DNA of 64,000 nucleotides from the NCBI RefSeq assembly GCF_022662015.1, contig NZ_JAKMCM010000004.1, positions 124,001-188,000 on the forward strand, given 5' to 3'. Positions 48,690-50,648 of the stretch are shown one piece after another. The translations under genes and the position numbers were made by a program. The stretch is from Aestuariivivens sediminicola (GTDB lineage: Bacteria > Bacteroidota > Bacteroidia > Flavobacteriales > Flavobacteriaceae). Position 1 is the first letter of the stretch. Each line of letters begins with the position of its first letter. Under the pieces are notes generated by a model that was not told where the DNA came from, ran no database searches, and saw only the letters and a program-made list of their open reading frames with translations.

Positions 48690-50648
48690 ATGAAACGCTT
48701 TGACCGAAAACTTGTTGTACTTATTGTACTTATTTTTGCATTGATGGGTTGGATGAGTAGAACGGAAATGTCTTATTATGTTTCAACGACCATAGCCGAT
48801 TTCTTTCTCCCGGGGTCTCAACCCACTGAATCAGGAACATTTGCTACACCGGACCAATGTGCTAATTGTCATGGTGGTTATGATAGCGCTGTAGAACCTG
48901 CATTCACCTATAACGGCAGTATGATGTCACACAGTATGCGGGATCCGCTCTTTGAAGCCACTTTAACCATTGCCAATCAGGACGCTATATTTTCCGGCGA
49001 CCTCTGTTTGCGATGTCATACACCAAGAGGATGGCTCGAAGGTCGCAGTGAACCCACTGATGGTTCGGCTTTGACCAGCGCAGATCGCGAAGGTGTACAA
49101 TGTCATTTTTGTCATAAACTGGTCGACCCCTTGAGCACGGCGCCTGAGGACCTGGCATATATGAATACACTCCCTGCGGCAAATATACCGACACAATACG
49201 GCAATGGTATGTATGTGGTTGATTCTGATGATAATACAAGACGCGGTCCCTACGATGATGCCAATGCCAATCATCCCACACTCTACTCACCATTTCACTC
49301 CTCCTCCGAATTATGTGGTACCTGTCATGATGTAAGTAATCCGGCGTTTAGTAAAGCGCCCGATGGTACCTACCAGCCAAATAGCATTGGCACAGCGGCA
49401 CCATCGTTTAATTCCTATGAGATGTTTCCTGTTGAACGCACCTACAGCGAATGGAAAATGAGTGCTTACAACACGCCTGAGGGGATACCCTCCTCTGTAT
49501 TTGGTGGCAACAAGGGAAGTGTATCGACCTGCACCGATTGTCATATGAAGGATGTTACCGGTAAAGGATGTAACAAAAGCTTTGCATCTGTGCGAGACGA
49601 CTTGCCCATGCACGATATAACCGGAGGCAATACCTTTGTGCCCCTGCTCATTAAAGACCAATTTGGGAATGCGGTTGATCCCGATGCCATTGATGCGGGA
49701 ATCCTGAGAGCAAAATACATGTTACAAAATGCTGCTACTCTCAACCTATATGCGGCAAGATCTTCGGACGGTTATGATCTAGATGTTGAGGTGATCAACG
49801 AAACAGGACATAAATTGCCATCGGGTTATCCGGAAGGGCGTCGCATGTGGTTAAATGTAGAAGCCTATGATAGTAATGAAAATCTCGTTTATGAATCCGG
49901 TGCATATGATGAAAACACGGGTGTGCTAACCAAAGATGGGACAAAAATATATGAAGCTAAATTAGGTATGAGTGAGGACGTTGCGGCTTTGGCCAATGCC
50001 AATAGTCCCGGAACCTATACCGCGGGCGAATCCTTTCATTTTGCCCTGAACAATGTTATTGTAAAAGATAATCGCATTCCGCCGAGAGGATTTACCAATG
50101 CCAATTTTCAAGCCATTCAAGCTGCTCCGGTAGGGTATTCCTATGCCGATGGAGCCTATTCGGATCTCACCTCTTATACGATTCCTGAAAACACTTATAA
50201 AATTGAAGTCAAATTATTATATCAGACCACCTCTAAGGAATATATAGAATTTCTAAGAGATAAGAACATAACGGATGCAAAAGGACAAATCCTTTATGAT
50301 CTCTGGTTAGCTCACGGCAAATCAGCACCGGAGGTCATGCAGGTGGCCGAATTTTATACCTCTACACTGGGAACGGATCAGTTAGAGAATTTGGCTGAGG
50401 CCATAAATATGTATCCCAATCCTGCTGAGGATGTGCTGAATATCGCTTTTAATTTCACATCCCAAGAACCGGTTTCATTAGATGTCTATGCCTTGAATGG
50501 CATAAAAATTCAGTCCATTCTAAATGGAGAGGATATTATGCCGAATACTATAGTTCAGTTTAAAACCAAGGGTTTATCCGGTGGCATATACATTATGAAG
50601 GTTAAGGTGAATACTAAGGTTATTTCTAAGTTATTCGTTGTAAAATAA
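48690..50648 (+). CDS. five-heme c-type cytochrome with T9SS type A sorting domain
   Basis: 652 residues. After an N-terminal signal (about 1-25), five heme-binding CxxCH motifs: CANCH (57-61), CLRCH (106-110), CHFCH (138-142), CGTCH (209-213), CTDCH (281-285). Many single His residues could serve as distal ligands. Residues about 330-560 are a beta-rich part, and the end (about 575-652) is a type A sorting domain with INMYPNPAEDVLNI, LDVYALNGIKI and LSGGIYIMKVKV. The protein would be exported by T9SS and is probably surface-attached. Heme attachment requires a Ccm/Ccs system elsewhere. Role unknown: extracellular electron transfer or an oxidoreductase on a small substrate. Confidence 0.88.
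   Translation: MKRFDRKLVVLIVLIFALMGWMSRTEMSYYVSTTIADFFLPGSQPTESGTFATPDQCANCHGGYDSAVEPAFTYNGSMMSHSMRDPLFEATLTIANQDAIFSGDLCLRCHTPRGWLEGRSEPTDGSALTSADREGVQCHFCHKLVDPLSTAPEDLAYMNTLPAANIPTQYGNGMYVVDSDDNTRRGPYDDANANHPTLYSPFHSSSELCGTCHDVSNPAFSKAPDGTYQPNSIGTAAPSFNSYEMFPVERTYSEWKMSAYNTPEGIPSSVFGGNKGSVSTCTDCHMKDVTGKGCNKSFASVRDDLPMHDITGGNTFVPLLIKDQFGNAVDPDAIDAGILRAKYMLQNAATLNLYAARSSDGYDLDVEVINETGHKLPSGYPEGRRMWLNVEAYDSNENLVYESGAYDENTGVLTKDGTKIYEAKLGMSEDVAALANANSPGTYTAGESFHFALNNVIVKDNRIPPRGFTNANFQAIQAAPVGYSYADGAYSDLTSYTIPENTYKIEVKLLYQTTSKEYIEFLRDKNITDAKGQILYDLWLAHGKSAPEVMQVAEFYTSTLGTDQLENLAEAINMYPNPAEDVLNIAFNFTSQEPVSLDVYALNGIKIQSILNGEDIMPNTIVQFKTKGLSGGIYIMKVKVNTKVISKLFVVK

Follow-up and report, generated by a model that had tools for sequence, protein, structure and literature searches.

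A pentaheme cytochrome with a type IX sorting domain in Aestuariivivens sediminicola, a candidate for electron transfer at the cell surface

Electron exchange between Bacteroidota and their surroundings is, to our knowledge, poorly understood, and a gene of the flavobacterium Aestuariivivens sediminicola raises the question of what a multiheme cytochrome could do with the export signal of a secretion system. The gene (positions 48690-50648, plus strand) lies in a 64,000-nucleotide stretch of contig NZ_JAKMCM010000004.1 (assembly GCF_022662015.1), hereafter the window. It encodes a c-type cytochrome with five heme motifs that ends in a sorting domain of the type IX secretion system (T9SS). The explanation we favour, with moderate confidence, is that of a pentaheme electron-transfer protein with the fold of the pentaheme cytochrome (PHC) group, which type IX secretion would bring to the cell surface. 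Putative roles in electron transfer to outside acceptors, or in catalysis, are plausible.

A conserved pentaheme core carrying lineage-specific C-terminal tags, with a T9SS tag in hosts that have T9SS, would make these proteins direct candidates for the electron exchange of Bacteroidota with the outside and, if this explanation is true, the cargo of T9SS includes large electron carriers with their cofactors already in place. The original prediction, made from the DNA of this locus, held that the combination was not known to be described functionally. In agreement, searches of the open-licence literature for multiheme proteins together with T9SS or type IX secretion gave no paper, and none of the papers listed by a looser search named T9SS; in passages of PMC9765461, which belongs to the wider literature on cytochromes and extracellular electron transfer, type IX secretion occurs only within a cited title. 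As far as we have found, a PHC core with a T9SS tail looks like a real form, not described before, of a known family of cytochromes, a modular family that would be wider than described.

Hemes, sorting domain and predicted fold

The original prediction described an intact chain of 652 residues with five CxxCH motifs and a C-terminal type A sorting domain, and all three elements held. The open reading frame begins with ATG and is free of internal stops, and the motifs start at residues 57, 106, 138, 209, and 281. Ten of the eleven cysteines of the protein belong to these motifs; when its residues were shuffled 20,000 times, one CxxCH arose in 64 of the shuffled sequences and two arose in none. 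The domains follow each other in the order of a hydrophobic N-terminus, a pentaheme domain, an Ig-like domain, and the T9SS C-terminal domain.

The sorting domain was recognised as such by two curated profiles. TIGR04183 matched residues 574-652, at the extreme end of the chain, with 31.8 bits (cut-off 23), and PF18962 matched residues 574-650 with 39.1 bits (cut-off 27, E 9.4e-10). The modelled tail (about residues 556-652) also matched the C-terminal domains of known T9SS proteins, namely mirolase (8qb1, Z 9.5, rmsd 1.6), NucA (8glk, Z 8.9), and RemA (8gl6, Z 8.5). Since DUF3244 proteins score as high over the same region (3sd2, Z 9.9; 4g5a, Z 9.8), this fold is compatible with a T9SS domain but not specific to it, and it is the profiles that carry the identification. 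The genome of A. sediminicola encodes SprA, the component that our search for T9SS targeted (two SprA_N matches, frame of 2421 amino acids, best E 6.5e-114), and two Cytochrom_C_asm proteins (frames of 1081 and 1088 amino acids). The protein thus resembles the type A cargo of T9SS (TIGR04183; NucA, RemA, mirolase) in its profile-defined domain, its compatible fold, and the presence of SprA in the genome, and differs from it in that the cargo is a multiheme cytochrome.

The fold predicted for the 652-residue protein is that of the PHC group, a family of cytochromes with a pentaheme and an Ig-like domain that was given its name in 2025 on the basis of cable bacteria and Geobacter (PMC11976967). 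The AF2 model, computed from an alignment of 55 sequences (A2), reached a pLDDT of 89.4 and a pTM of 0.80. The top PDB match of the full-length model in Foldseek was the penta-heme cytochrome c552 of Thermochromatium tepidum (5ze8, E 3e-13). VIA-align superposed the two with Z 23.1 and rmsd 2.7 over 335 of 385 residues (model residues 47-557), and the next row fell to Z 10.0; the rows that followed were Ig-like domains, placed at about residues 347-560 of the model, and small beta-sandwiches on the tail. The same cytochrome was the only PDB sequence that the family profile reached at E up to 0.01 (E 3.7e-5). Both proteins combine five hemes and an Ig-like domain in what is here predicted to be a common fold. 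They share about 23% identity, and c552 has His where the family has the invariant Met79. The match ends at model residue 557, so that the T9SS domain is an addition relative to c552.

Conservation points to candidate ligands for every heme. A six-row profile scan of genome contigs gave 106 relatives, many of them from metagenome bins, of which 80 were kept. The main alignment has 85 rows, made up of the window protein, 79 of these 80 loci, and five further sequences. It includes three near-duplicate pairs, apparently one genome twice each (L006/L011, L007/L012, and L009/L014, where L numbers denote loci), and omits L054, whose extracted frame lacked CxxCH and which was excluded before counting. 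None of the 85 rows lacks any of the five CxxCH motifs, L088 included, for which a first count had given four. Further alignments held 70 sequences (A3) and eight rows that include three distant relatives encoded on plasmids (A4).

Outside the motifs, five Met or His columns are invariant or nearly so (Table 1). Their number equals that of the hemes, which suggests that all hemes are six-coordinate. The column of Met79 holds His in one and Met in two of the three distant relatives, and an exchange of this kind would be tolerated at an axial heme ligand. Probably, one heme is His/Met-ligated through Met79 and the others are His/His-ligated. The strongly conserved stretches NxTGHKLxSGYPEGRRxW and FHFxLNN...DNRIPP belong to the Ig-like domain. 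The eleventh cysteine, Cys294 (window 49569-49571), lies outside the heme motifs; this column is Cys in 54 of the 85 rows and Ala in 29.

Table 1 Features of the pentaheme cytochrome gene (window coordinates; row counts refer to the 85-row alignment unless A4 is named)
Feature	Residues	Window position	Strand	Basis
Whole gene, T9SS-tailed pentaheme c-type cytochrome	652 amino acids + stop	48690..50648	+	Open reading frame, profiles
N-terminal hydrophobic segment, presumed Sec signal	1-31	48690..48782	+	Sequence; AF2 helix 2-25, low confidence 26-28
Heme motif 1, CANCH	57-61	48858..48872	+	Invariant in 85/85 rows
Candidate distal heme ligand Met79	79	48924..48926	+	85/85 rows; aligns with His of 5ze8; Met in L094-L096
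Heme motif 2, CLRCH	106-110	49005..49019	+	Motif reading, 85-row alignment
Heme motif 3, CHFCH	138-142	49101..49115	+	Motif reading, 85-row alignment
Candidate distal heme ligand His195	195	49272..49274	+	85/85 rows; not kept in three distant relatives
Heme motif 4, CGTCH	209-213	49314..49328	+	Motif reading, 85-row alignment
Heme motif 5, CTDCH	281-285	49530..49544	+	Motif reading, 85-row alignment
Candidate distal heme ligand His308	308	49611..49613	+	85/85 rows; 8/8 A4 rows including three distant relatives
Ig-like domain	348-556	49731..50357	+	AF2 strands 349-556; matches 5ze8 and other Ig-like domains
Candidate distal ligand from Ig-like domain, His374	374	49809..49811	+	85/85 rows; 8/8 A4 rows; His in 5ze8
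Candidate distal ligand from Ig-like domain, His450	450	50037..50039	+	84/85 rows, remaining row a gap; absent in L096 and three distant relatives
Type A T9SS C-terminal sorting domain	574-652	50409..50645	+	TIGR04183 and PF18962 over cut-off; beta-sandwich

Among its named relatives, Geobacter ExtKL (NF040886) and Gsu2801 share the pentaheme and Ig-like layout of the protein, and NF040886 matches 32 of the 55 members at E up to 0.001. The window protein differs from them by its sorting tail and by the lack of an ext-like cluster, and its own score against this equivalog (31.4 bits, cut-off 250; best stretch residues 275-513) led us to reject membership. ExtKL is more abundant on Fe(III) and has been proposed to act on selenite (PMC5877670). 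Gsu2801 increases when a gsu1771 mutant is on a graphite electrode (PMC10599522), and it is up twofold in coculture (PMC8691401). An ExtKL homologue is highly expressed in sulfate reducers partnered with methane-oxidising archaea (PMC10553843). By analogy, these ties to extracellular electron transfer hint at a similar role for the window protein. Surface multiheme cytochromes of the porin-cytochrome conduits (Mtr, Pcc, OmcA/MtrC) would perform the same last step. They differ from the window, which among frames of at least 60 amino acids has a lone one with CxxCH, and the OmcA/MtrC decaheme family (TIGR03507) was rejected at 16.5 bits against a cut-off of 209.3, with five hemes instead of ten. 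The DmsE family was likewise rejected by score.

T9SS exports folded cargo, and PorU cleaves its C-terminal domain. We postulate that the chain would enter the periplasm via Sec, where the cytochrome c assembly proteins of the genome would attach the five hemes. The heme domain would pack on the Ig-like domain, as it does in the model, and the latter may supply two of the five candidate distal ligands. Its C-terminal domain would then direct the folded, hemylated protein out of the cell through SprA, and a PorU-type sortase, in line with what is generally known of T9SS, would cut this domain off and attach the protein to the surface. Once there, the protein would carry electrons between further redox proteins of the surface and an acceptor or donor outside the cell.

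C-terminal tails and SprA across the relatives

Hemes and sorting domain share a single chain in many homologues as well, as the original prediction would have it. Pfam and NCBIfam each recognised a T9SS tail in 21 of 55 members. On the same members, Pfam found dockerin type I domains in three and fn3 in five, while two PEP-CTERM models of NCBIfam matched one member each. By eye, the tails of L016, L017, L019, L037, L038, and L078 have dockerin-like or PEP-CTERM-like ends and no T9SS domain.

Tails were then mapped on a tree of the core, which omits one member of each duplicate pair and L033, L057, L062, L086, and L089, and adds L094-L096. We used a profile built from nine Bacteroidota tails, with a threshold of E below 1e-5. 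T9SS-like tails were assigned to 24 of 79 rows, seven of which had seeded the profile and two more of which share the tail of a seed. These rows belong to Bacteroidota (18), Zixiibacteriota (3), Latescibacterota (2), and Calditrichota (1), and none was found elsewhere in the tree. Five Bacteroidota and three Zixiibacteriota rows carry other tails. L055 (E 9e-4) was counted as other, and L023, whose contig ends within the tail, stands outside the count. The state of the tail requires seven changes on the tree.

The distribution of SprA matches that of the tails. Among the 46 genomes or records searched, SprA was present in 18 of 19 genomes with T9SS-tailed proteins, the exception being L021, a 1.4-Mb bin, whereas just one of the 17 genomes from other phyla whose proteins end in other tails had it (Fisher p 6e-8, uncorrected for kinship, in a contrast that follows phylogeny). 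Nine of the ten remaining genomes on the Bacteroidota-Zixiibacteriota side of the tree also encode SprA. We read this pattern as that of one redox core that would be sent to the cell exterior by whichever tag its host uses.

Redox partners and alternative readings

A gene for a protein with two or more CxxCH motifs neighbours the pentaheme gene in 10 of the 80 loci. In 27 of the 80, less than 2 kb is available on one side, and therefore partners can be missed. The sole recurring heme neighbour is a cluster of MauG-like di-heme proteins in five of the 80 loci (L018, L027, L037, L038, and L039). In two Bacteroidales bins, these genes lie directly upstream of the PHC gene on the same strand (L027:6693-8231 and L039:6744-8264). 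Their products themselves carry T9SS tails, with 27.7 and 34.4 bits in Pfam (cut-off 27) and 35.5 and 38.6 bits in NCBIfam (cut-off 23), respectively. Judging from these sequences, it is possible that a T9SS-tailed MauG-like protein is a surface redox partner; such a partner fits the relay and the enzyme readings alike. Meanwhile, the Shewanella loci encode a nine-heme protein about 7 kb from the pentaheme gene (L080:1322-3085, and L075:2-766, which is cut by the locus end).

The genome of A. sediminicola also holds a multiheme cluster about 109 kb downstream on the same contig (L101:4397-19000 and L102:3-8450; contig C16, 283.4-305.9 kb). It comprises, in order, an NHL protein, an 11-heme and a 4-heme protein, a second NHL protein, a 9-heme protein, a candidate barrel of 656 amino acids with no Pfam match, another 9-heme protein, a cytochrome c assembly protein, a 12-heme protein of 1632 amino acids, and a T9SS-tailed NHL protein. 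By its gene content, this cluster looks like a porin-cytochrome conduit, and its order is kept in another genome of the family (G025). We considered the cluster as the electron source of PHC and rejected it. The PHC gene was present in 5 of 299 sampled family genomes (E up to 1e-30, own genome counted) and the barrel in four, and only the genome of A. sediminicola had both (Fisher p 0.066). Paired_CXXCH proteins were found in four of eight genomes with PHC and in four of 12 without it, among 20 chosen genomes.

A number of observations weigh against a surface relay. The pentaheme gene stands alone in the window, with no ext-like gene cluster around it, and the flanks of the 80 loci revealed no general operon partner, the largest recurring cluster (10 loci) being heme-free. 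The PHC proteins of L027 and L039, next to the T9SS-tailed MauG-like genes, have no T9SS hit of their own, and CCP_MauG occurs in one of five PHC genomes tested against three of five others, so this partner is not general. In the phylum sample, the barrel was found in 2 and PHC in 5 of 395 genomes (E up to 1e-40 for PHC, own genome counted), again overlapping in the genome of A. sediminicola only. Paired_CXXCH gave no match in the complete genome G154, which has PHC, nor in G278, G062, and G048. The candidate distal ligands rest on conservation and not on coordinates, and two of them, H195 and H450, are not kept in the three distant relatives. The signal peptide of the window copy is non-canonical: its N-terminal segment is a hydrophobic helix in the AF2 model that by eye lacks a clear AxA cleavage motif, while homologues such as L030 have clearer signal-peptide-like N-termini. 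Finally, the sPHC and lPHC proteins have been classed as potentially catalytic, with a pentacoordinate heme (PMC11976967).

Some of these points also bear on the electron route. The original prediction spoke of a heme wire, and this label we found unsupported, because five hemes in one soluble domain make a short relay, no general electron partner is apparent, and G154 has the gene but no Paired_CXXCH protein; the nearest solved relative is itself a penta-heme cytochrome with an Ig-like domain. As the barrel cluster does not track PHC and G154 lacks Paired_CXXCH, the protein seems not to need a porin-cytochrome conduit. We tentatively propose, as an idea that may well prove wrong, that T9SS-tailed PHCs form a separate, conduit-free route for outside electron transfer in Bacteroidota and their relatives. 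Heme loading in the periplasm would come first, the complete cytochromes would then leave through the T9SS pore, and outside they would work with other secreted redox proteins, for instance the MauG-like ones with T9SS tails. Under the same proposal, the core would be a portable redox module that dockerin-like, PEP-CTERM-like, or Ig-type tails aim at other surfaces in other phyla.

Among the alternatives to a surface electron-transfer protein, the strongest, though in our judgement an unlikely one, is a secreted redox enzyme or a part of one. One heme would have an open or labile sixth site, perhaps near Met78/Met79, which the other four would feed, and the substrate would be a small extracellular molecule, e.g. 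an oxyanion, peroxide, O2, or NO. The catalytic classification of sPHC and lPHC speaks for it, as do the many invariant charged residues that are not candidate ligands (among them D85, E249/R250, E254, R302, and E382/R384/R385), the scarcity of recurring partners in the 80 loci, and the MauG-like di-heme neighbour in two relatives. However, five Met/His columns for five hemes suggest six-coordination throughout, and no known heme reductase family passed its cut-off among the 11 Pfam and eight NCBIfam matches obtained at E up to 1. Nitrite reductase was rejected, with only weak matches to NapC/NirT (10.3 bits, cut-off 24.1) and NrfH (17 bits, cut-off 134.2).

A conductive filament assembled from PHC units on the cell surface, comparable to the AvECN nanowire of archaea, is improbable. 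This idea draws on the similarity of sPHCs to AvECN in heme layout and on a link between c552 and AvECN credited to Baquero et al. 2023 (both in PMC11976967), and the present model matches c552. On the other hand, Ig-like and sorting domains are by themselves not features of filaments, and no ligand need come from a neighbouring subunit because five candidates for five hemes are kept within the chain. AvECN was not among the matches listed in the Foldseek and VIA searches with the full-length model and the heme domain, which is neutral as to kinship. The heme domain modelled alone (pLDDT 85.1) had no Foldseek match at E up to 0.001 and a single VIA row with Z of at least 2 (hydroxylamine oxidoreductase, 1fgj, Z 2.1), and its search is insensitive, since it did not return 5ze8, which the full-length model had retrieved.

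Least probable of all is a periplasmic or vesicle-borne cytochrome with a vestigial or inefficient C-terminal domain and little or no protein outside, for although the signal peptides of the flavobacterial copies are non-canonical and the tail diverges far faster than the core among homologues, this tail exceeds curated cut-offs and is retained in the more divergent L094, L095, and L096, none of which seeded the tail profile.

Neighbouring genes and wider occurrence

The pentaheme gene is the sole stop-to-stop frame of at least 60 amino acids with a CxxCH motif on either strand of the window, and a porin-cytochrome conduit at the locus is accordingly not apparent among frames of this size. By sequence reading, the gene upstream encodes a carboxypeptidase-regulatory-like protein, and sterol-desaturase-like and ferredoxin-like genes lie downstream on the opposite strand. 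A scan for terminator-like signals returned eight against 2.0 expected, one of them immediately 3′ of the stop codon, and a promoter scan returned 10 matches against 8.3 expected.

A second copy in the same genome encodes 757 amino acids with five hemes and a T9SS tail, and shares 64% identity with the window protein over residues 31-556. This second gene (L103:10321-12591) is divergent from a gene for a T9SS-tailed protein of 283 amino acids with one CxxCH (L103:9080-9928).

The PHC family appears to be much wider than the cable bacteria and Geobacter from which it was named (PMC11976967), and to differ in carrying Met or His at what is probably a ligand of a heme. Relatives occur in Bacteroidota, Zixiibacteriota, Latescibacterota, Calditrichota, Planctomycetota, Myxococcota, Thermodesulfobacteriota, Acidobacteriota, Chloroflexota, Pseudomonadota (including two Shewanella), and others, as well as in archaeal Methanosarcina and Thermoplasmata. 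The tree of the core carries 18 phylum labels, with long branches leading to L096 and to the pair L037/L038. Two planctomycete copies are placed on a long branch within the Bacteroidota part, perhaps reflecting transfer.

Mobile elements were covered as well. Viral contigs yielded three stretches that fit the pattern and no relatives among them, and PHROGs gave no match at E up to 0.01. Six plasmid records encode distant relatives with 23-26% identity, and the contexts differ among the four examined. The Aeromonas record has no genes annotated around the relative. The Shinella relative (L112:5821-7371) adjoins FTR1, with imelysin iron-transport and nitrous oxide reductase genes nearby. The Paracoccus protein (L113:4879-7890, 1003 amino acids) is encoded near Nqr genes and joins the pentaheme relative to a long N-terminal extension with an extra CxxCH.

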